Assembly: GCF_019112545.1 (NCBI RefSeq)
Contig: NW_025064889.1
Span: 1,409,893-1,473,892, forward strand
DNA length: 64,000 bases
Reading direction: 5' to 3'
DNA from: Guyanagaster necrorhizus
Lineage: Eukaryota; Basidiomycota; Agaricomycetes; Agaricales; Physalacriaceae
Below, one piece after another: positions 8,101 through 63,700 of this stretch (position 1 is its first letter; the number at the start of each line of letters is the position of its first letter). The position numbers and the translations under genes are program-made. The notes beneath the pieces are model-generated. The model was not told the DNA's origin. It saw only the letters and a list, made by a program, of their open reading frames with translations, and did not search any database.

Positions 8101-9182
8101 GAGTTTGGAATGACAAATTAAATGCTACATTTTTGGGACTTGGATATATCAGATTGATCAGTGATCAATGTGTGTACATCAGACAAATGGGTTCTGGTCC
8201 CATAATTGTAGCTGTACATATCAATGATATGATATTGCTTGCCCCAGATGATGAAACCATGTCTAAAATAAAAGAAGAGCTTAAGAAGAAGCTAAATGTC
8301 ACAGACATAGGGGAGATTCAATATATATTGGGCATGAAGATAGACAGGAATTGGGACAAAAGCACTATCACTCTATCCTAGAAGGCATATATTCTCAAAG
8401 TACTTGAGCAAATAGGCATGAATGACTGCAAACCAGTCAAAATGCCTATGAACCTGAATGTACAGCTAGAGAAAATTCTGACAGAAGACCCACGAGGTGT
8501 TGATATAGCCATCAGGTAATATTATCATACTGGTGTTGGATCACTAATGTATATGGCCAATAGATTCCAGCCTGACATTGCATATGCTGTCACCAAATTA
8601 AGCAAGTACATGCAGAATCTGACTGCTGAGCATGTCACAGCCTTGAAGCGAGTTTTCCACTATCTGAAGGGAACTCTAGACTTTGGAATCACATATAAAG
8701 AGACTATGAATAAGCTGATACTTTATTTAGACTCAGACTGGGGAGAAGACAGAACAGATAGAAGATCAATATCTGATTATGTCTGTACCTATGCAGAGGG
8801 AGCTGTTACTTGGAGTTCAAAGAAACAGCCCACCATAGCCTTATCCACTATGAAAGCAGAATATATGGCTCTTGCACACACAACCCAGGAAGTAATTTGG
8901 CTATGAGCACTCTTAACTGAATTAGGATTGCCACCTTATGAAGTGATGACTATTTTCATTGACAATCAATCAGCAATCAAATTTGCTGAGAACTCTATAT
9001 TCCATGCATGATTAAAGCATATAGACATATGGCACCACTTTATTCATAAGTGCATGACTTCAAATGAAGTCAAAGTTCAGCACTGTGCATCAGAAGAAAA
9101 CTTAGCAGATATATTCACCAAAGAGCTACCAAGACTATTACATGAGTATTTATCCACAGGTATTCTAGGAACTTGGAATTGA
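5136..9182 (+). pseudogene. Copia-1 gag-pol polyprotein (stops only, no net frameshift)
   Basis: One frame of 1,349 codons runs from ATG 5136 to a TGA just before the 3' LTR. Domains in order: Gag (start reads MDSQSMYRIDPLKGLENY), a CCHC knuckle C-Y-S-C-G-E-T-G-H-I-R-T-N-C near 5768-5809, protease with E-D-F-G at 5961-5972 where D-S-G is expected, pre-integrase HxH/CxxC, integrase with DLWGP and the SPSQNGVAER motif near 6838-6867, RT from about 7740, and RNase H near 8715-9000. The RT active site reads H-I-N-D (8217-8228) instead of Y-V-D-D. Roughly 16 in-frame stops fall where Trp, Gln or Arg is expected (for example C-K-stop-T-Y for C-K-W-T-Y), consistent with C-to-T/G-to-A decay. It would make virus-like particles and copy the element's RNA if intact; this copy cannot. 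Confidence 0.93.
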
Positions 9183-30462: not shown

Positions 30463-33271
30463 TTGCAATCTTGTCCTGAGATACAACTGGCTCTCCTTCT
30501 ATAATCCACTGATTGACTGGACTAAGAACAGTATCACTTTCCACTCAAGCTATTGGAATCTCACTCCAACCAATTCTGCATCCTCAACTGCATTTCTGAG
30601 ACTTTCATGCCTGCAGGACAACAGCCCACCCCTCTCTAAGCCTTTCAGCTCAATTCTAGGACTTCTATGCTCATTGGACCCTATCAGTCCAATCTCTGGA
30701 GCTCCACCCTGTTTCAAATCTTCTTTGGGTAATCAGTGAGCTCTGTTTCCATATAAACCTATTTATTCCTATTCTCTCTCAGAGTATTTTACTATAAAAG
30801 CACACCCAAAGATTTCCATCATATCTGCTACTGCATTTGTCTGAGCCAGTGCAGAGGAAAGTGCTCAGCAGTTCATGCTGCAGTTTTTCTTGCTTAATAT
30901 TGGAGCTAAAGCTGTATTCATGGAACTGGCAGATCTTTCATCAGTGCCAGTAAAATACTATGATTTTGCAGATATCTTCAGTGGTATTCTCTCTGAAAAG
31001 CTACTCAAACACAGACTATACAACTTCAAGATCAATCTTGAGGAAGGAACATTTCTACTGCTTGAGCCTATTTATTTCCTCTCAGAATCTAAACTCAAGG
31101 TCTTATAAGAATTTATTGATGATAATCTATGCAATGGGTTCATTACTCTGTCTCACTCTCCACATGAGACTCTGATCCTCTTTGTCAAGAAGCAGACTGG
31201 TGAACTCCAACTTTGCATCAACTACTGCAGCCTAAACAAAATCTCCAAGAAGAATCACTACTCTCTTCCCCTCATTTTAGATCTTCTCAACTCTATCTAC
31301 TCTGCATGCATCTACACCAAGCTCAATCTTCAATATATCTATTATCTTGTTCACATAGCAAAGGGTGATAAATGGAAAACAGCCTTCCAAATCTGCTACA
31401 GTTTTTTCAAATGGTGTGTCATGCTTTTTGGCCTCACAAATGTTCTGATGGCATTCCAATATTTTGTGAATAATATATTCTCTGATATGCTTAAAATATC
31501 AGTAGTAGTCTACCTTGACAACATTCTCATATATTCTGACAATCTAGAAGGTCATCAGAAACATGTTTGTGAGGTCCTATATAGACTTAGAGCTAATGGA
31601 CTCTACTACAGAGGCTCCAAATGTGAATTCAACCAGGACTCTGTGGAATACTTAAACTATATCCTATTATCTGAAGGACTTCACATATCTGAAAAAAAAG
31701 TTAAGACTATTGTTGACAGGCTGATATCACAAAAAGTCAAGGACATCCAATCTTTTCTTGGCTTTGCCAACTTCTACTGTCACTTCATATATGAATATAG
31801 TAATATTGTTATTCCTCTTACACAACTCACCTGCAAAGAAAGTCCATGGAAATTTAATGACAAATGCATGGCTGCCTTCAACAAGTTAAAAAAGACCTTC
31901 ACACATGCTCTCATCCTTATCCACTGGATCTCTGATTGATGAATAGTGGTGAAGACTAACACTTCTGACTATATAATTGCAGCTATCCTCTCTATCTATC
32001 TTAAATATAGCAAAATTCACCTCATTGCTTTCCACTCCTAGAGCCTTCACAATGCTGAACTCAACTATGATATCTATGACAAAGAACTTTTGATCATTTT
32101 TGAAGCTTTTAAACATTGGTGCCACTATCTTAAAGACTTCACAGACTCCATTGATATTATAACAGATCACAAGAATCTTGAATACTTTGCCACTACCAAG
32201 ATTCTGATCCACTGACAGATCTGCTGATCCAAATACCTATCTCAGTTTAACCTAATAATCTGGTTTTATCTGGGGAAACTTGATGGGAAACCAGATGCAC
32301 TCACTAAATGATGGAACATCTATCCTAAAGAGAGAGATAGCTAATACACTTAAGTCAATCCCCATAATTTCTGATCTGTCTTTATTCAAGAACAACTCTC
32401 TGTGTCACTTTATGCAATCTATCTTGAAGACCCTATCCTCTGAGCTAGTGCTATTATAGACATTGACAAGTCTCACATTGATATCAAAAAAGCACAATTC
32501 TCTGACCCTACATCCTCTGATGGCCTCCATCAGGCCAAAGCCACTTTTGAATCCTCTCTCTCTTAGTGGTCAATTGATGAATCTGATATTCTTCACTTTA
32601 AAAGCCACATCTATGTCTCAGACTCTGATTATCTCCATCTCTGTATACTCCAGAACAATCATAATCACATTCTAGCAGGCCACTTTAATCAAAACCAGAT
32701 ATTAGAGCTAGTCCAGCAGAATTACACCTGGCTAAAAATGTTTGAATATGTTTGATACTATATTAATTCCTGCACAGTTTGTGGATGCAACAAGATATCT
32801 AGACACTACTCATATGGATTGCTCAAACCTCTACTAGTTTCTAAATAGCTATGGGATTCCATTTCCATAGATTTCATTGAACAACTACCAGACTCCAATA
32901 GATTCACCACCATCCTAGTAATTGTTAACCAGGCTAGCAAGCAAGCTATCTTCATTCCCATCTATGACACCATCAACTCCACAAAACTCACCTAACTTTT
33001 TGTTATCCATATCTTCTCTAAGCATAAAGTATCTAGCTATATCACCTCTGATTGCAGCTCTGAATTTATTTTTCAGTTTACTTGTGCCCTAGCCATAGCC
33101 CTTGATATAGGACTCCACTTTACTTCTGGTTACCATCCAGAGGCTGACAGACAAACCAAATATGCAAACTAAACTCTGAAACAATACATCTACATCTACT
33201 GCTTCTACCAACAGGATAACTGAGACATTCTCTTACTCATTGCTGAGTTTGCCTACAACAATGCCTCTAAT
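30463..33271 (+). pseudogene. A1 pol, middle part: protease end, RT, RNase H, integrase
   Basis: Resumes at the base after the C1 duplication with the protease end (Y-N-W-L...Y-N-P-L-I-D-W). After a Pro/Ser-rich linker, RT begins near 31015. Its active site is Y-L-D-N at 31511-31522, where A2 has Y-L-D-D. RNase H (T-N-T-S-D near 31955; A2 T-D-A-S-D), the integrase zinc site (C-T-V-C near 32776), T-S-D-C-S-S-E-F near 33045 and D-R-Q-T-K-Y near 33148 follow. Thus the RT Asp, one RNase H residue and the integrase Glu are altered. It ends abruptly after A-E-F-A-Y-N-N-A at an unrelated insert. Confidence 0.9.
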
Positions 33272-35146
33272 GCTGAAAAGGTCTTGCATGCACACAAGGT
33301 GAAAATAGATACAGCAGAGTGTTATTCACTGATCACACTCATACTAACATACATACACAATACTCTTAGTTTGTGGGAGGATTATAATATGATAAAAGTA
33401 GTCACAGCAAATCTAATTGTCTTTTTCAATGAATCCACTGTGCACAAATAGCTATAGCATATATACAATAGCCCTAGGTCTCTCTAAGTCTCAAAGCTTT
33501 TTGTTTTATCAAAACAAGAGATGGCAACAAATATTGCTAGGCCTGAAGGCAAAGGTACTGCAGCTCAATACAATATATTGAAACACTTCCACAAAAACTC
33601 TCAAATAGTCTCAAGCATAGCTTAGATCAAATCAAAATCTCTGACACACACAATATATGACTCAAAGCTTAGCACTCTAAGCAGAAACCAATCAAACATA
33701 TCCACCAGCATCAACAAGCTCAGATCTTTGTATATAAGCTTTTAAACTGATCATAGACCTACAGGATTTAAACCTATGCAATCTAGAGACACAAAACACA
33801 ATAAAACATTATTCAACAGACCCAAAGAGTTTGAATCTCTGCTGATCTATGGAAATATCACAATTAACTCCATCCACAGGCCAAAGAGCTTGAACCTCTG
33901 CCACTTGTAGTGCTGTATATCATAAATACCTTAAAAACTCAAGATAATGCTCTTTAAATATCACTCTCTTATTCTCAGATTAGAGTGCAATCTAACACCT
34001 CTTATCAAGTCAAAATCAAGTCTCTCATGAGCTTCTGTGCCTTGTTCAGTTCTCAAATCTCTCTTAATGATATCAATAATAAATTTACTCTCTTGCCTGG
34101 AGTTACAAACACAAACTCAAATCCAAAGCTAGAGTGCAAGACTTTCTATACTCAATACACTGCAACTGTGGAGGGTCAGAAACTTTTATTCTACTCATAC
34201 AATGCAGTATTTAAATATTTTACTGTGGTACTTACTAATACAGCTCTATTATAGTATCTTCAAAGTGTGAGACTCTGTTTTGGATGCTGCAGATATTATT
34301 TGCATGCATATGGCAGTTGACATGCTTATTCTATTCTGGATCAGGACTATGCCTGCTGTTCCCTCACTAGCTGATATCAGCTAGCTGGCCTAATCAGATC
34401 TGCTTGCTTTGTTATTTCTCTGATAAAGCATTCTGACACTGAAGAACTGCTCTAGGCTTTTGAAGTTATCTCTCATATCTGAAGTCAGTCACAATGACTA
34501 TGTTCTCTTTTCCAGTGTTCAGACATTCTATCTGACTCATAATATGCATCACTTCTGATCTAGCATGCATCAATTAATCCACCCAATGATTATGTGTCAT
34601 ATCTCAGTATGATATGGGGTCTCTCACAGTCTTATATATGCTAAGGCACTATAAGTATATGTGCAAGTCTCTGAGTATTATGCATGCTATTCATTCTTTG
34701 GTAGTATTTCTCTATTTACTACTTATTGTTATTATTTCATTTCTCTATTCAACACTCAGTTATTCAGATACCTTTCTTTGAGTCTCAGTTTTCTGTTCTA
34801 AAGCATGTCTCATCAGTACATCAATAGCTGTGCATTCTTGATCAATGTGATCAGAATTGCCAATCATATTTCAATTGCACTCTCTTTATTTTCAGTATGT
34901 CTTCTTGTAATGATATGAGCATATTTAGGGCCAAGTGCTAGAACCTCACATCCAGCCTAACCTCTCTAGTATTAGTCTATCACTAGGCTATGCACTCTGC
35001 TTATTGTTACTTCCATTTAGTATCATAATGGCTATGTTTTTTTGTGCTCTAGCTCTATTTTCTGTTACATATTTAGTGGACTGGAATATAGTCTCTGTAT
35101 TCTTAATTTTTGCAAATTTACATGCTTGAACATGAAGAGGGTATGT
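33272..35146. other. Unidentified 1.9-kb insert or replacement in A1 pol
   Basis: Compared with A2, A1 pol loses about 250 bp here (integrase end to the region before F-K-V-G-D-K) and has 1.9 kb of unrelated AT-rich sequence instead. The longest open stretch is 89 codons at 33985-34254 (+), with no motif I recognise. I find no LTR pair, inverted repeat or clear target duplication. It could be another decayed element or a rearrangement filler. Confidence 0.5.
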
Positions 35147-35631
35147 CACTGGTGCCTCTATTCAAAGTGGGTGATAAGATTTATCTCAGTTCCAAACACA
35201 TCAAAACCACTTGTCCAATCAGAAAATTCTCTGAAAAATACCTTAGTCCTTTCAAAATCCTGACTCAATTTGGCTCCCACTCATTCATCCTTAAACTTCC
35301 ACTGGACCTCTGATCCATTCACTCAGTCTTCCACATCTCACAGCTGAAACTCATGGAAGAAAGTATCATCTCTAACCAAGCCTAACCTCCACTATCTCTG
35401 ATTGAAGTGGATGGAGAAAAACAGTATAAAATAGCTTAAATCTTTGACTTTAAGCTAGACCACCAATTTTACTGCCTGCTCTTATATAATATTCAGTGGT
35501 TAGACTATGAAGGTACCAATAAAGAATTTGTTTAGCTGCCAGCCTCCAAGTTCTCTGCCAATGAATTTATTAAGGACTTCCATCATCAATATCCAGACAA
35601 ACTAGAATCTTTATCCAAGATCATTTTTTGA
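35147..35631 (+). pseudogene. A1 pol C-terminus with chromodomain-like end
   Basis: Reads F-K-V-G-D-K-I-Y-L, then the conserved gypsy motif V-F-H-I-S-Q-L near 35323, then a chromodomain-like segment (I-Q-W-L-D-Y-E-G-T-N-K-E, near 35490-35530) ending F-H-H-Q-Y-P. It aligns with the A2 pol end at 60728-61200 on the minus strand. Stops at 35373-35635 break it. Confidence 0.85.
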
Positions 35632-35829
35632 ACACCTTCTTTTCAAGTTCCTAGTCCACTTGATGTTTTCTTAGCCTTATCAGTTTCCACTGTCTCTAAC
35701 TCTTTACCACTTGTATTTAAACTTAAAAACAGAAAAATAATTATATTTTATTTTTAGACTCTGCTGAACTCCAGCCATTCATCACACCAACTTATATAAA
35801 ATATAAAAAATAAGACAAATCATTCAGGA

Positions 35830-36117
35830 GAAAAGACCAACACCTAAAGAACTTACTACACCTCTGTCTTCATCAGAGTCTGCCTTCTTTTCCATCTCCC
35901 TCAACTCTGCCAGATTCTTATTCAAATGCTTTTTCATCACCTTTCTCAATTTTTCCACCTGTGACTCTCTCACATCCTGAAACTCCACATGAGCCACTTT
36001 TCAAGCCTTCAAGCTAGATAATATGAAATCCACTGGAGATCCTATATCTGATGTATAGTCATCCAGCAACCTCTCTACAGTCTCATGAATATCTGCCATC
36101 TTCTCCACTAACTTGTC
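35830..36117 (-). pseudogene. A1 antisense ORF, C-terminal remnant
   Basis: On the strand opposite A1 pol, a frame reading D-K-L-V-E-K-M-A-D-I-H...L-L-D-D-Y-T-S-D, then a Lys/Glu-rich helical tail (V-E-K-L-R-K-V-M-K-K-H-L) aligns with the C-terminal part of the antisense ORF of A2 (60241-60490). It has one internal stop. The rest is lost because the element breaks at 36118. The protein-level match between two diverged copies supports a real gene on this strand. Confidence 0.6.
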
Positions 36118-58711: not shown

Positions 58712-59210
58712 TGTTAGGAATATGCCAATCAGATGAGCTTGAGTGCATGCTTGGAGTCCAGCAGAGTGCATGAGTGTCAATGAAGCTATTGGCAATATCA
58801 CCCTTAAGTCAGAGCTTAAGGATCTGGATGGACCAAATAGAGTTCTGTTAGAGAAGCAAACCAGAATGTTCTTTAGAGCAGAATCTGAAGAATGAGGTAA
58901 GGAGGAGTTGAAGTGAGTGTGAAGTGTAGCTGGCTTATCCAAGTTGATATTTGAACTAAGTAGTTATGATGATATATATGGCTTTATATACTAATGATAG
59001 TTAATTCTGAGTTGGGTTCTATTGGGTTTCAGTGTTAGTATTTGCTATCGAGTTCGGGGTCTAGATTTTATAATGTGAAATATGGATATGAAATGATAAT
59101 GGTGAAATGAAATTAGTAGGTAATGGGAAGCAGCCAGAGTCTAGTGAGTAGCATGATTGGATTCATGGTTGGTTTGAGATGACATAGAGGCTGGCAGCAT
59201 GCATATAACA
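58712..59210 (-). repeat. A2 3' LTR
   Basis: 499 bp. Read on the minus strand it starts TGTTATATGCATG and ends TTCCTAACA, and aligns with both halves of the A1 LTR. Confidence 0.88.
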
Positions 59211-59226
59211 GTATCCCCCCCTTAGC
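59211..59226 (-). promoter_or_regulatory. A2 polypurine tract
   Basis: On the minus strand a run of eight G within AAGGGGGGGGATAC directly precedes the LTR, as a plus-strand primer should. Confidence 0.6.
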
Positions 59227-59360
59227 ATTCTTGCCCTTAAGAGCACTGATCTTGATGGCTGGTAGAGCCACATAGAAGATTGTTGGTGGCTGTGGGAGTT
59301 TTACAGCTTGATCTGAAACCACTATCTTCACTTATATTGTTGCTCACCACATATTATCGC

Positions 59361-60540
59361 TCATGCACTCCCAAACCTCTGGTGAAGGGATCCATCTCTG
59401 ATGGCCCTGAAGAGGTCAAGGAATTGTTTTGTCTGAAATGGTGAACCATGGAGGAAGAATATGCAAAGGCCATGAAGAGCCATTTGAAATAGCAAGAGAA
59501 GTAGGAGTGAGAGGAAAGGGCCTGGGAGTCATGGAAAAAGGAGCAGAAGGAGGAATTGGAGAGGAAGAGAAAGGAGGTTCGGCAGGCCATGGAGAGGCAG
59601 GCTAAGGAGGCTGAGAAGGCATTGAGAGAGGTGGCTCAGAGAGAGGCTGAGAAGAGAGAGGCCACAGAGACAGCAGCAAGAGCTGAGGCTGAGAAAGTAG
59701 AGCTAGAGGGGATGATTATGGAGGATGGGTTGCAAATGACCCCTGTGGAGGCTGTCGATTTCTGATTGTGTCAAGTGTTGGCAGAATGGTTTAGTCCTGG
59801 CCCTGGTCTTCACTTCAAGAAGGTGACTTGCCATGCATCTCCAGAGTCCAATGATGAGTAGTACAAGAGAACTGAGGGGGATGATGAGTCTAAAGAATCT
59901 GAGGGAACTCTGAAGAGGAGGAAGAAGGTGTAGGAGAGAAAGAGAAGGGCAGCAGGTCTGGCAGAGAATGAAGAATTGTTGGATGGTGAAAGTAAGTGTC
60001 TTGGTTTTCTTTTATGGCTTAACTTAGTTTTTGTTTTCAGGGAGTTGTGTGTGCTGTCATCAAGATGGCATATGGTGTTATGCATGACTGGTAACTGAAG
60101 GCACCAGTTGTGAGCAGACTTGCTCTCACTGCAAGATCAAGAAAACCACCTGTTTGTTCAATAAGGGTGTCACTGTGAGCAAGGTGATCAGCAGTATGGA
60201 GGTCTCCACTGGTCTCCACCAACTTTCAAAATTGATACACAAGTTGATGCATCATATGGATGAGTTGGCAGACAAGGTGGTGGATGTTCGGAGTACTGTG
60301 GCAGGTCTTCAAGATGACTATAGTTCTGATAATATGTCATCTCCTTTAAAGCTGTTTTCAGAGTCTGAGATGAAGACCTAAAAGAAGGCCTGACTGATTT
60401 TTAAGAATGAGAGGGATCAGAAGGTGGAGGATCTTCAGAAGGCAATGTTGAAGGGGCTGGATGAGGATATAGAGGAGTTGAAGAAGTGAGGGGAGAGTTC
60501 AGGTTTCAGTGTAGGCTCATCAGATTCTGCTTCTTTGTAA
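59361..60540 (+). pseudogene. Antisense gene in gypsy A2: coiled-coil and Cys-cluster protein, one intron
   Basis: Runs opposite to A2 pol, between the pol end and the 3' LTR. Exon 1 (to 59991) is one frame with several TGA/TAG: a start region G-P-E-E-V-K-E-L-F, then a long Lys/Glu/Ala-rich helix (59470-59720) typical of a coiled coil, an M-T-P-V-E-A-V-D-F motif, and a basic R-R-K-K patch. Intron 59992-60040 (49 bp) has GTAAGT, a CTTAAC branch-like site and TTTTCAG. Splicing joins G-E-R to S-C-V-C-C in frame. Exon 2 has a Cys cluster (C-x-C-C...C, then C-x3-C-x2-C-x6-C at about 60046-60154) and a second helical region, ending at TAA 60538. The C-x2-C-x6-C part recalls half of a fungal Zn2Cys6 cluster, so DNA binding is possible but unproved. 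The start is uncertain; ATG 59448 is one candidate. A1 holds a remnant. Confidence 0.65.
59992..60040 (+). other. Predicted spliceosomal intron in the A2 antisense gene
   Basis: 49 bp: 5' GTAAGT, branch-like GCTTAACT about 20 bases before the end, pyrimidine-rich stretch, 3' TTTTCAG. Both flanking exons are in matching frames only if it is removed. Confidence 0.7.
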
Positions 60541-60727: not shown

Positions 60728-63700
60728 TTAGGAATGGAATGTTTGAATGACTTTGGACAAGAGTCCTGGTTTGCCTGGATATCAGTGGTGGAATTCTTCA
60801 ATAAATTCATTGGCAGAGAACTCAGAGGCTGATAACCAAGCAAATTCTTTGTTGGTACTTTCATATCCTAGCCACTGGATTTTGTACAGCAGTGGGCAGC
60901 AGAACTGGTGGTCCAGTTTAGAGTCAAGAATTTGAGCTATTTCAAAATGTTCTTCTCTATCAACTTTGACTAGAGGCAGTGGTGGTTGGATTTGGTTAGG
61001 GATGGTGTTTTCTTCTATGAATTCCAATTGTGACACATGGAAGATGGGGTGGATGGACCAGAGATCCAGTGGAAGCCTCAGGATAAAGGAGTGGGTACCA
61101 GGTTAGGCTATGATTTTGAAAGAACTAAGGTATTTTTCTAAGAATTTTCTGGTTGGGCAGGTGATTTTGATATATTTGAAGCTGAGGTAGGCCTTGTCCC
61201 CCACTGTGAACAGGGGTGTTGGGATCCAATGCTTGTCTGCTTAGGTCTTGTAGCAAGACTGAGCTTTGGAAATTTCATCCTTCAGTAATTGATAAAGTTC
61301 ATCAAGGTTGACTGCGAAATCTTGGGCCTGAGCAGAGGCGATGTCCCTTTCAGAGTGAACAGTGATGTTAGAGTGGTAACTCTTGTCAGCAAAAAATGGG
61401 AAAATTCCAGTGGATGTGTTAAAGGCATTATTGTAAGCAAATTCAGCAATGGATAAGAGGGTGTTCCAGTTGTCCTGCTGGTAGGAGCAATAGATGCAGA
61501 TGTATTGTTTCAGAGTTTAGTTTGCTCATTCTATTTGTCCATCAGCCTCTGGATGATAACCAGAGATAAGGTGGAGTTCTATGTCAAGGGCCACAGCTAA
61601 GGCACAAGTAAATTGGAAGATAAATTCAGAGCCACAGTCAGATGTGATGTGACTGGGTACTCCATGTTTGGAGAATACATGGATAAGGAAAAGTTGGGCA
61701 AGCTCCATGGAGTTAATGGTGTCATGAGTGGGAATGAAGATGGCTTGCTTGCTAGCTCAGTCTATGACTACTAAGATGGTGGTAAATCCATTGGAGTCCA
61801 GTAGTTGTTCAATGAAGTCCATGGAAATAGAATCCCATGGCCATTCAGAAACTGACAGAGGTTTGAGTAACTCATAGGGGTGGTGTCTAGATGCCTTATT
61901 GTGCCCACAAACTGTGCAGGACTTAACATAGTGTTAGATGTATTCATGCATCTTTGGCCAGATATAGTTCCACTGGACTAGCTCTAATGTCTGATTTTGA
62001 CCAAAGTGGCTTGCCAAGATATGATCATGATTGTTCTGTAGTATATGGAGACAGAGATCTCCAGACTCCAGAACATAGATGTGGCCTTCAAAGCAGAGGA
62101 TGTCTGATTCATCAATGGACCACTGAGAGAGAGGATTCTGAAGTGGCCTTAGCTTAGTGGAGGCTGTTGGAGAACATAGGGTCAGAAGATTGTGCTTATT
62201 TTATATTGATGTGAAGCTTGTCAATGTCTATGATGGCACTGGCTTAGAGGGTAGGGCCTTCAAGGTGGGTTGCACAGAGTAATGCAGAAAGTTGTTCTTG
62301 GGTGAACACAAGTCAGAAATTATAGGGATTGACTTTGGCATATTGGCTATCCCCCTCTTTAGGGTAGACATCCCATTGTCTAGTGAGTGCATCTGGTTTT
62401 CCACCAAGTTTTCCAGGGTGAAAATGAATTACTAGGTTGAACTGAGATAGGTATTCAGACTAGTGGACTTGTTGGCAAATTAGAATCTTAATGGTGGCAA
62501 AGTATTCAAGATTCTTGTGGTCTGTTATGACATCAATAGAGTCTGTGGAGCCTTCAAGGTAGTGCTGCCAATGTTTAAAAGCTTCAAAAATGGCCAGGAG
62601 CTCCTTGTCATGAGTGTCATAGTTGAGTTTGGCATTGTGGAGGCTCTGGGAGTGAAATGCAATCAGGTGAATTTTGCTATCTTTGAGGTAGATAGAGAGG
62701 ATAGCTGTGATAGCATAATCAGAGGCATCAGTTTTCACCACTATCTTTTGATCGGGAACCCAGTGAGTAAAGATGAGAGTATGTGTAAAGGCCTATTTCA
62801 ATTCATTGAAGGCAGCTAAGCAATTGTCATCAAATTTTCATGAAGTTCTCTTGCAGGTGAGTCATATAAGAGGAATGATGATGTCAATATATCCATATAT
62901 GAAGCAATAGTAAAAGTTGGCAAAACCAAGGAAGGATTGAATGTCTTTGACTTTTCATGGCACCAGCCAGTCAACAATGGCCTTGACTTTTTCTTCAGAC
63001 ATGCAAAGTCCTTCAGGTGATAGGATGTAGCCTAGGTACTCTACAGAGTCCTGGTTGAATTGACATTTGGAACTCTTGCAGTAGAGTCCATTAGCTCTAA
63101 GCCTGCATAGAACCTCTTAAACATGTTTCTGGTGATCTTTCAGATTGTTGGAATATATGAGGATGTCATCAAGGTAGACTACTACTGATATATCAAGCAT
63201 GTCAGAGAATATATCATTCACAAATTGTTGGAATGCCACTGAAGCATTTGTGAGGCCAAAAGGCATGACATGCCATTCAAAGGAACCATAATAGGTCTGG
63301 AAGGCTGTTTTTCATTCATCTCCCTTAGCTATGCAAATGAGATGGTAGGCATGCCTAAGGTTAAGCTTGGTGTAGATGCACACAGAGTGGGCAGAGTCAA
63401 GGAGGTCAGAAATGAGGGGGAGAGAGTAGTGATCTTTTTTGGAGATTTTGTTTAGGCTATAGTAGTTGACACAAAGTTGGAGTTTACCAGTCTTTTTCTT
63501 GACAAATAGAACTGGAGTCTCATGTGGAGAGTGGGATGGAGTAATGAACTCATTATGCAGATTATCATCAATAAACTCTCATAGAGCCTTGAGTTCAGAT
63601 TTCAAGAGAGAATAAATAAGGCCAAGCAGTAGAGATGTTCCTTTTTCAAGGTCGATTTTGAGGTTGTATGGCCTGTGTTTGAGTAGCTTTTCAGAGAGGG

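Follow-up and report, generated by a model that had tools for sequence, protein, structure and literature searches.

A candidate spliced accessory gene, antisense to gag-pol and encoding a six-cysteine protein, in a Ty3/gypsy retrotransposon family of Guyanagaster necrorhizus

The stretch of Guyanagaster necrorhizus DNA analyzed here (64,000 nucleotides, hereafter the window) contains a retrotransposon in which the strand opposite pol carries a long frame interrupted by stops, and the locus raises the question of whether this frame is a gene of the element. An earlier note, made from the letters alone, had described a gene on the antisense strand between pol and the 3' LTR, and its strand, position, and coding frame are borne out: a broken two-exon gene occupies 59334-60540 of the plus strand, with pol (minus strand) on one side and the 3' LTR on the other. 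Its end at 60540 stands as proposed, whereas alignment moved its start from 59361 to 59334. The features are as follows.

58712..59210 (about), minus strand (element sense): 3' LTR of the element, from self-comparison of copy L009 and the target duplication
59211..59222, minus strand: polypurine tract (a C-run on the plus strand) abutting the inner side of the 3' LTR, from the sequence
59334..59991, plus strand: exon 1, Lys/Glu-rich coiled coil and basic motifs, from the alignment of 47 copies
59992..60040, plus strand: intron of 49 nt, phase 1, GTAAGT...TTTTCAG, from splice sites across 47 copies
60041..60540, plus strand: exon 2, six-cysteine cluster (about 60046-60153), linker, and helices, with the TAA stop at 60538-60540
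60731..62375, minus strand: 3' part of pol with integrase and C-terminal domain, from tblastn of protein P0002 against the window and Pfam domains
62460..63311, minus strand: RNase H and reverse transcriptase pieces of pol, from Pfam
35845..36117, minus strand: what is left of the C-terminus of a divergent antisense-gene homologue, next to a second element, from tblastn (E 5e-11; 93 aa at 41% identity)

The host element is a Ty3/gypsy LTR retrotransposon, as seen from the order reverse transcriptase-RNase H-integrase and from LTRs with a target duplication. Pfam placed the pol domains of the window on the minus strand (reverse transcriptase at 63117-63311, RNase H at 62460-62792, H2C2 at 61934-62200, and rve at 61526-61756); the rve piece scored below the cut-off in the window copy and above it in copy L011. 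A chromodomain (PF00385) match in the window copy was below the cut-off (E 7.8e-4), and none was found in P0002 at E <= 0.01. Pol and the antisense gene are convergent, with a gap of about 190 bp. The partner LTR of the window element falls outside the window end and was found in L009, where self-comparison revealed LTRs at 851-1350 and 8198-8697 that are 87% identical and accompanied by a 5-bp target duplication (CCTTC). A C-run was present at the site equivalent to the polypurine tract in all 12 elements with paired LTRs. The primer-binding site of L009 (8173-8197, adjacent to the 5' LTR, and likewise in other copies) resembles a tRNA T-arm, as it contains TTCGAA, which we take to be the T-arm motif; primer-binding sites usually start with TGG, and priming may be unusual in these elements. 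A second, similar element lies on the plus strand at window 32312-36117, with pol at 32312-33274 and 35152-35625 and about 1.9 kb of other DNA between.

The antisense gene in the window is dead. It contains 11 in-frame stops (7 in exon 1 and 4 in exon 2), its start codon has been lost (ATA at the aligned position), and a 111-nt (37-codon) in-frame deletion in exon 1 near 59968 removed sequence that is present in the other 46 aligned copies, with L050 retaining 110 of the 111 nt. Comparison of 12 LTR pairs yielded 427 transitions versus 21 transversions, with 0.281 transitions per CpG site versus 0.050 per site elsewhere. The stops of the window copy match this transition- and CpG-driven decay, consistent with their earlier description as being of the transition type.

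Relatives of this copy are numerous. A DNA search of the same 53.3-Mb genome (best 40 of 264 candidates scored, 80 matching pieces read as 40 places, of which 39 were taken and one on contig C18 was left out) and a protein search (best 97 of 543 candidates scored, giving 140 matching pieces, 53-99% identical and mostly exon-wise) together identified at least 108 distinct loci within the scored subset, so the frame is present in other copies, the absence of which would have spoken against a gene. An alignment of 47 copies was assembled from 39 family-A copies (L009-L047) and 8 mostly more divergent ones (L048, L050, L056-L061). The 49-bp intron at 59992-60040 and its joining of two exons, as originally proposed, withstood this comparison: the donor GTAAGT is present in 47 of 47 copies and an acceptor CAG or TAG in 46 of 47, and the intron occurs in all eight divergent copies. 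Its length is 48-56 nt and, for 39 of the 47, cannot be divided by three; in the three most divergent copies (L057-L059) it is 48 nt, so that length alone would not force splicing there. L042 has lost the AG acceptor, and its intron happens to be an in-frame read-through. Protein matches running in a single stretch had suggested copies without an intron, and these were ruled out since the intron is present in their DNA. Across the whole genome, the donor pattern (up to 3 mismatches) gave 176 matches and the acceptor pattern 82, versus 0 for the reversed control in each case.

The reading frame itself has been retained to differing degrees. At the start codon, 31 of the 47 copies read ATG and 3 (including the window copy) ATA; in the other 13 this codon is cut off or has no alignment. 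Scored over those codons that align with copy L035, five copies are free of stops and 42 have at least one. Length differences relative to L035 were multiples of three in 55 of 72 cases for exon 1 and 7 of 9 for exon 2, versus 2 of 17 for the intron and 40 of 139 downstream (L023 and L045 were left out, and the tally was made per copy, with shared events counted repeatedly). Among 11 elements, stops accumulate with LTR divergence (Spearman -0.62 versus LTR identity, p 0.04).

Purifying selection on the antisense frame had been named in the earlier note as a check, and it was found for part of the material. Because decay is biased toward transitions and CpG sites, pN/pS is already low in neutral sequence (simulated mean of 0.56-0.60 over the full length), and dN/dS without correction for this bias would overstate selection; the null was therefore simulated with the LTR-pair spectrum, using 100 runs per pair. 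Seven pairs were chosen by the analyst, with copies shared among pairs. Four of them (L035/L057, L035/L058, L060/L058, and L060/L059), all between subfamilies, had observed pN/pS values of 0.39-0.43 that lay below all 100 neutral runs, whereas L035/L060, L035/L042, and L035/L056 fitted neutrality, with 17-22 of 100 simulated runs as low. When the exons were taken apart, exon 1 was below all neutral runs in four of the seven pairs and exon 2 in three. Over 35 pairs, the gene frame had the lowest pN/pS of the six frames (median 0.45, or 0.36 with CpG masked), the next-lowest frame giving 0.56 (0.49 masked). In exon 2, the first, second, and third codon positions had 0.0265, 0.0074, and 0.0519 transversions per site, position 2 thus being hit seven times more rarely than position 3; the corresponding values for exon 1 (0.0578, 0.0493, and 0.0737) revealed a much weaker bias. 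These comparisons show protein-coding constraint on the antisense gene between subfamilies, as judged from substitution patterns.

Contrasts within the tree were weak and partly negative. Parsimony N/S was 1.63 on deep branches versus 1.90 on decaying tips (p 0.019; CpG-masked p 0.16), with a deep-branch class that includes decayed copies, and stops were not rarer on deep branches (82 versus 1852 other changes) than at tips (118 versus 2306; p 0.34). For comparison with pol, 16 of the 19 remaining long loci were used (with L012, L013, and L027 set aside beforehand), and four gave no value (L017 and L018, with partial pol; L019 and L024, with no match). In the resulting 12 copy pairs, the pN/pS of the antisense gene was higher than that of integrase in eight, equal in one, and lower in three. 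The pol control for A1 gave pN/pS values of 0.31 and 0.27.

The association of the gene with the element was assessed from the integrase side, using the best 79 of 2588 candidates scored. For at least 47 of these 79 integrase matches, an antisense-gene match was scored on the opposite strand no more than 2.5 kb from the end of pol, and among the matches listed there were none on the same strand near integrase. For at least 21 of the remaining 32, again among the matches listed, the splice-site pattern was found on the opposite strand at that place; these 21 places were picked by eye from 100 of the 176 donor places and checked by script. The gene or its splice sites thus lie tail-to-tail with pol in at least 68 of the 79 matches, and none were seen for 11 among the matches listed. 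The gene has both properties that define an aORF-3R: it is situated between pol and the 3' LTR and antisense to gag-pol, with LTR pairs recovered in 12 elements, and it is carried by most copies, with conservation like that of other element genes (at least 108 loci).

Gene and pol appear not to share one history. A tree of the antisense gene from 13 long loci with the whole integrase stretch grouped L011, L014, L016, and L022 (support 100/99) as well as L020, L021, L023, and L026 (support 100/97). The integrase of the same 13 copies rejects both groups, with AU p values of 1.7e-41 for the L011 group and 0.01 for the L020 group that are not blind, as the tested groups were taken from the antisense tree after the integrase distances were known. 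On account of this strong disagreement, the gene and pol seem to have been reshuffled between elements, with modules apparently exchanged, and template switching may have been the route.

The predicted product agrees with the Lys/Glu-rich coiled coil plus cysteine cluster that had been read from the window copy. In the stop-free copy L035 it comprises 433 aa, counted from the start codon aligned to that of the homologue P0001, and runs from a Lys/Glu-rich helix through basic motifs, six cysteines, and a linker to two predicted helices. The cysteines of the window family form a Zn2Cys6-like array with the spacing C-x2-C-x6-C-x14-C-x2-C-x6-C. The usual Zn2Cys6 pattern we take to be C-x2-C-x6-C-x(5-12)-C-x2-C-x6-8-C; the central linker of 14 residues is shared with P0001, and P0017, P0019, and P0021 have 8, inside that range. 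Pfam did not recognize the cluster as Zn_clus (PF00172; E 3.9, 8.1 bits versus a cut-off of 21). When the 433-aa product was compared with Pfam at E <= 1, Exonuc_VII_L alone was returned (E 0.91), with no meaningful family and no TRP28 (PF04195) domain of the Retand type, and AlcR appeared in a PDB profile search at a nonsignificant E of 2.5. AlphaFold modeling of L014 exon 2 (12 rows, pLDDT 69) predicted helices at 51-93 and 107-152; a second model had a pLDDT of 62, and both models are weak. Over the cysteine cluster, block means were about 53-72, with a short helix and a hairpin, and Foldseek found no match to the exon-2 model at E <= 0.001. The proposal of a possible DNA-binding protein is made plausible by the six conserved cysteines and their spacing, and is not helped by the PF00172 score or by any convincing fold. 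From its sequence features, the product is a probable zinc-binding nuclear protein, and DNA binding is plausible.

A profile search with the translated product, which had also been suggested at the outset, located homologues in other fungi. An initial search, covering 5.8 billion proteins, returned a single one, P0001, which at 38% identity is colinear from the start codon through to the end and retains the six cysteines. A two-row profile raised the number to 22 including P0001 (7996 candidates scored), and a 12-row profile added no protein to these. Twelve of the 22 are named Armillaria (five ostoyae, three solidipes, two borealis, and two nabsnona), and four Armillaria homologues are named Zn(2)-C6 fungal-type in UniRef. 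Eleven rows are colinear and 37-69% identical to P0001; four of the six cysteines are invariant or nearly so, and the other two are missing in P0008 only. Sixteen extra residues at the intron site occur in P0001, P0003, and P0019 and are lacking in P0004-P0007, P0011, P0017, and P0021; as they look like the product of a read-through intron, they provide a second hint of the intron, from protein sequences alone. Several Armillaria proteins among P0004-P0021, some of them named Zn(2)-C6, have about 150 additional C-terminal residues that are absent from the window family. A. ostoyae is singled out, in the available portion of the source, as exceptional for candidate proteins that contain sequence derived from transposons (31.6%; PMC10799480), a figure that would fit a place behind a pol for the Armillaria genes as well.

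The copy-wide splice sites, the constant position and orientation, the selection between subfamilies, and the colinear homologues together support a conserved, spliced antisense gene belonging to the element. With moderate confidence, we interpret it as an accessory Ty3/gypsy gene opposite gag-pol whose spliced mRNA would encode a nuclear zinc- and DNA-binding regulator of about 430 aa. An antisense promoter in or beside the 3' LTR would drive the mRNA, which would be spliced and translated into the nuclear protein; this could dimerize via its coiled coils, coordinate zinc through the six cysteines, and associate with element DNA (LTR or leader) or chromatin, the outcome being that element expression is raised or timed or that silencing is countered. 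The intron would survive retrotransposition because the genomic RNA contains the complement of the gene and offers no intron to the spliceosome; an intron in the sense direction would be spliced from the replicating RNA.

An accessory protein of the particle or the pre-integration complex, acting as a chaperone or in nuclear import or target choice rather than in transcription, is unlikely in our estimation, and it has several points in its favor. Basic motifs and zinc-type cysteines would equally fit a protein that binds nucleic acid inside a particle, two relatives match Zn_ribbon_IS1595 weakly (E 0.54 and 0.32), and nuclear import of the pre-integration complex is among the options proposed for such genes in the available text of PMC7264820. 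Expression from the opposite strand would, however, be uncoupled from Gag-Pol, and Zn2Cys6-like spacing followed by a helix seems more like that of DNA-binding regulators. We give even less credence to the antisense RNA, as silencing trigger or regulator, being what matters instead of a protein: a regulatory role of antisense transcripts is discussed for other elements (PMC7264820, as available), yet the reading frame, the amino acids, and the splice sites are all conserved here, and an RNA role would need none of them.

The three neutral pairs, the stops in 42 of 47 copies, and the weak deep-versus-tip test would suit a gene fragment that was captured once and has since hitch-hiked without function. 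That history is very improbable given the four pairs below all neutral runs, the uneven spread of exon-2 transversions over codon positions, and the colinear homologues (11 rows) with their nearly invariant cysteines. The least credible account, to which we assign almost no weight, makes the frame a shadow of a sense-strand gene opposite exon 1, where the minus strand is open for 239-272 codons in several copies and frames start at position 1576 in five of the seven loci listed (L011, L012, L014, L019, and L024). The minus-strand frames have pN/pS values of 0.56, 0.70, and 0.99 versus 0.45 for the gene frame, Lys and Glu codons read in reverse are seldom stops, and homologues and splice sites follow the plus frame.

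Few components of LTR retrotransposons are as poorly understood as antisense accessory genes, their position and conservation being known and their function not. The present family offers a checkable mark of expression in its short antisense-strand intron, a domain with testable biochemistry (zinc and DNA), and, within a single genome, considerably more than a hundred naturally occurring copies. Mushroom proteins listed as transcription factors may belong to transposons.

Antisense extra ORFs in this position were said in the earlier note to exist in plant elements, and the accessible text of PMC7264820 and PMC11963269 confirms it. The plant aORFs share with the fungal gene their place, orientation, presence in most copies, and suspected nuclear or DNA-binding role (same sources, in part). 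The fungal gene differs in its host, its six-cysteine cluster, and its lack of any Pfam match including TRP28; it also has an intron, a term absent from the main texts of the two papers. Among fungi, brtn of Boty/BcGypsy1 from the ascomycete Botrytis cinerea is an additional antisense gene of a Ty3/gypsy element (Zhao 2011, as covered in the available parts of PMC7264820 and PMC8365987); its place is known in Botrytis and Sclerotinia according to the same excerpts, and PMC8365987, to the extent available, describes it as absent from the last B05.10 annotation. Brtn resembles the present gene, by description only, as an antisense extra gene of a fungal Ty3/gypsy element. Given the plant antisense genes at this place and Boty, the kind is already known, also in fungi. 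The novel features are an intron, a cysteine cluster, homologues in Armillaria, and the reshuffling between elements; our literature search, to which most subscription papers were external, returned no account of a fungal LTR element with a spliced antisense gene for a cysteine-cluster protein.

With the Zn2Cys6 regulators Gal4 and AlcR the product shares the arrangement C-x2-C-x6-C-xn-C-x2-C-x6-C, linker, and (as predicted) helix. It departs from them in scoring far below the PF00172 cut-off and in having the Lys-rich half of the cluster second; in Gal4 the order of the halves differs, the Lys-rich half not being second.

The best analogy, which is functional only and claims no sequence relation, is HBZ. 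HTLV-1 to -4 express the antisense genes HBZ/APH from the 3' LTR as spliced transcripts, and HBZ, a bZIP protein of the nucleus, reduces expression driven by the 5' LTR (PMC10186651, in its available text). It is conceivable, although we hold the idea only tentatively and consider it more doubtful than not, that basidiomycete Ty3/gypsy elements evolved an HBZ-like system, in which a dimeric zinc-cluster protein from a spliced antisense transcript of the 3' LTR would control the LTR or counter silencing, as a cassette exchanged between elements and Agaricales-wide in extent. If so, part of the annotated Armillaria "Zn(2)-C6" repertoire would be transposon regulators. The two systems would then have arrived at their antisense product with different domains, as HBZ has a bZIP (APH has none) and the fungal gene has a cysteine cluster.
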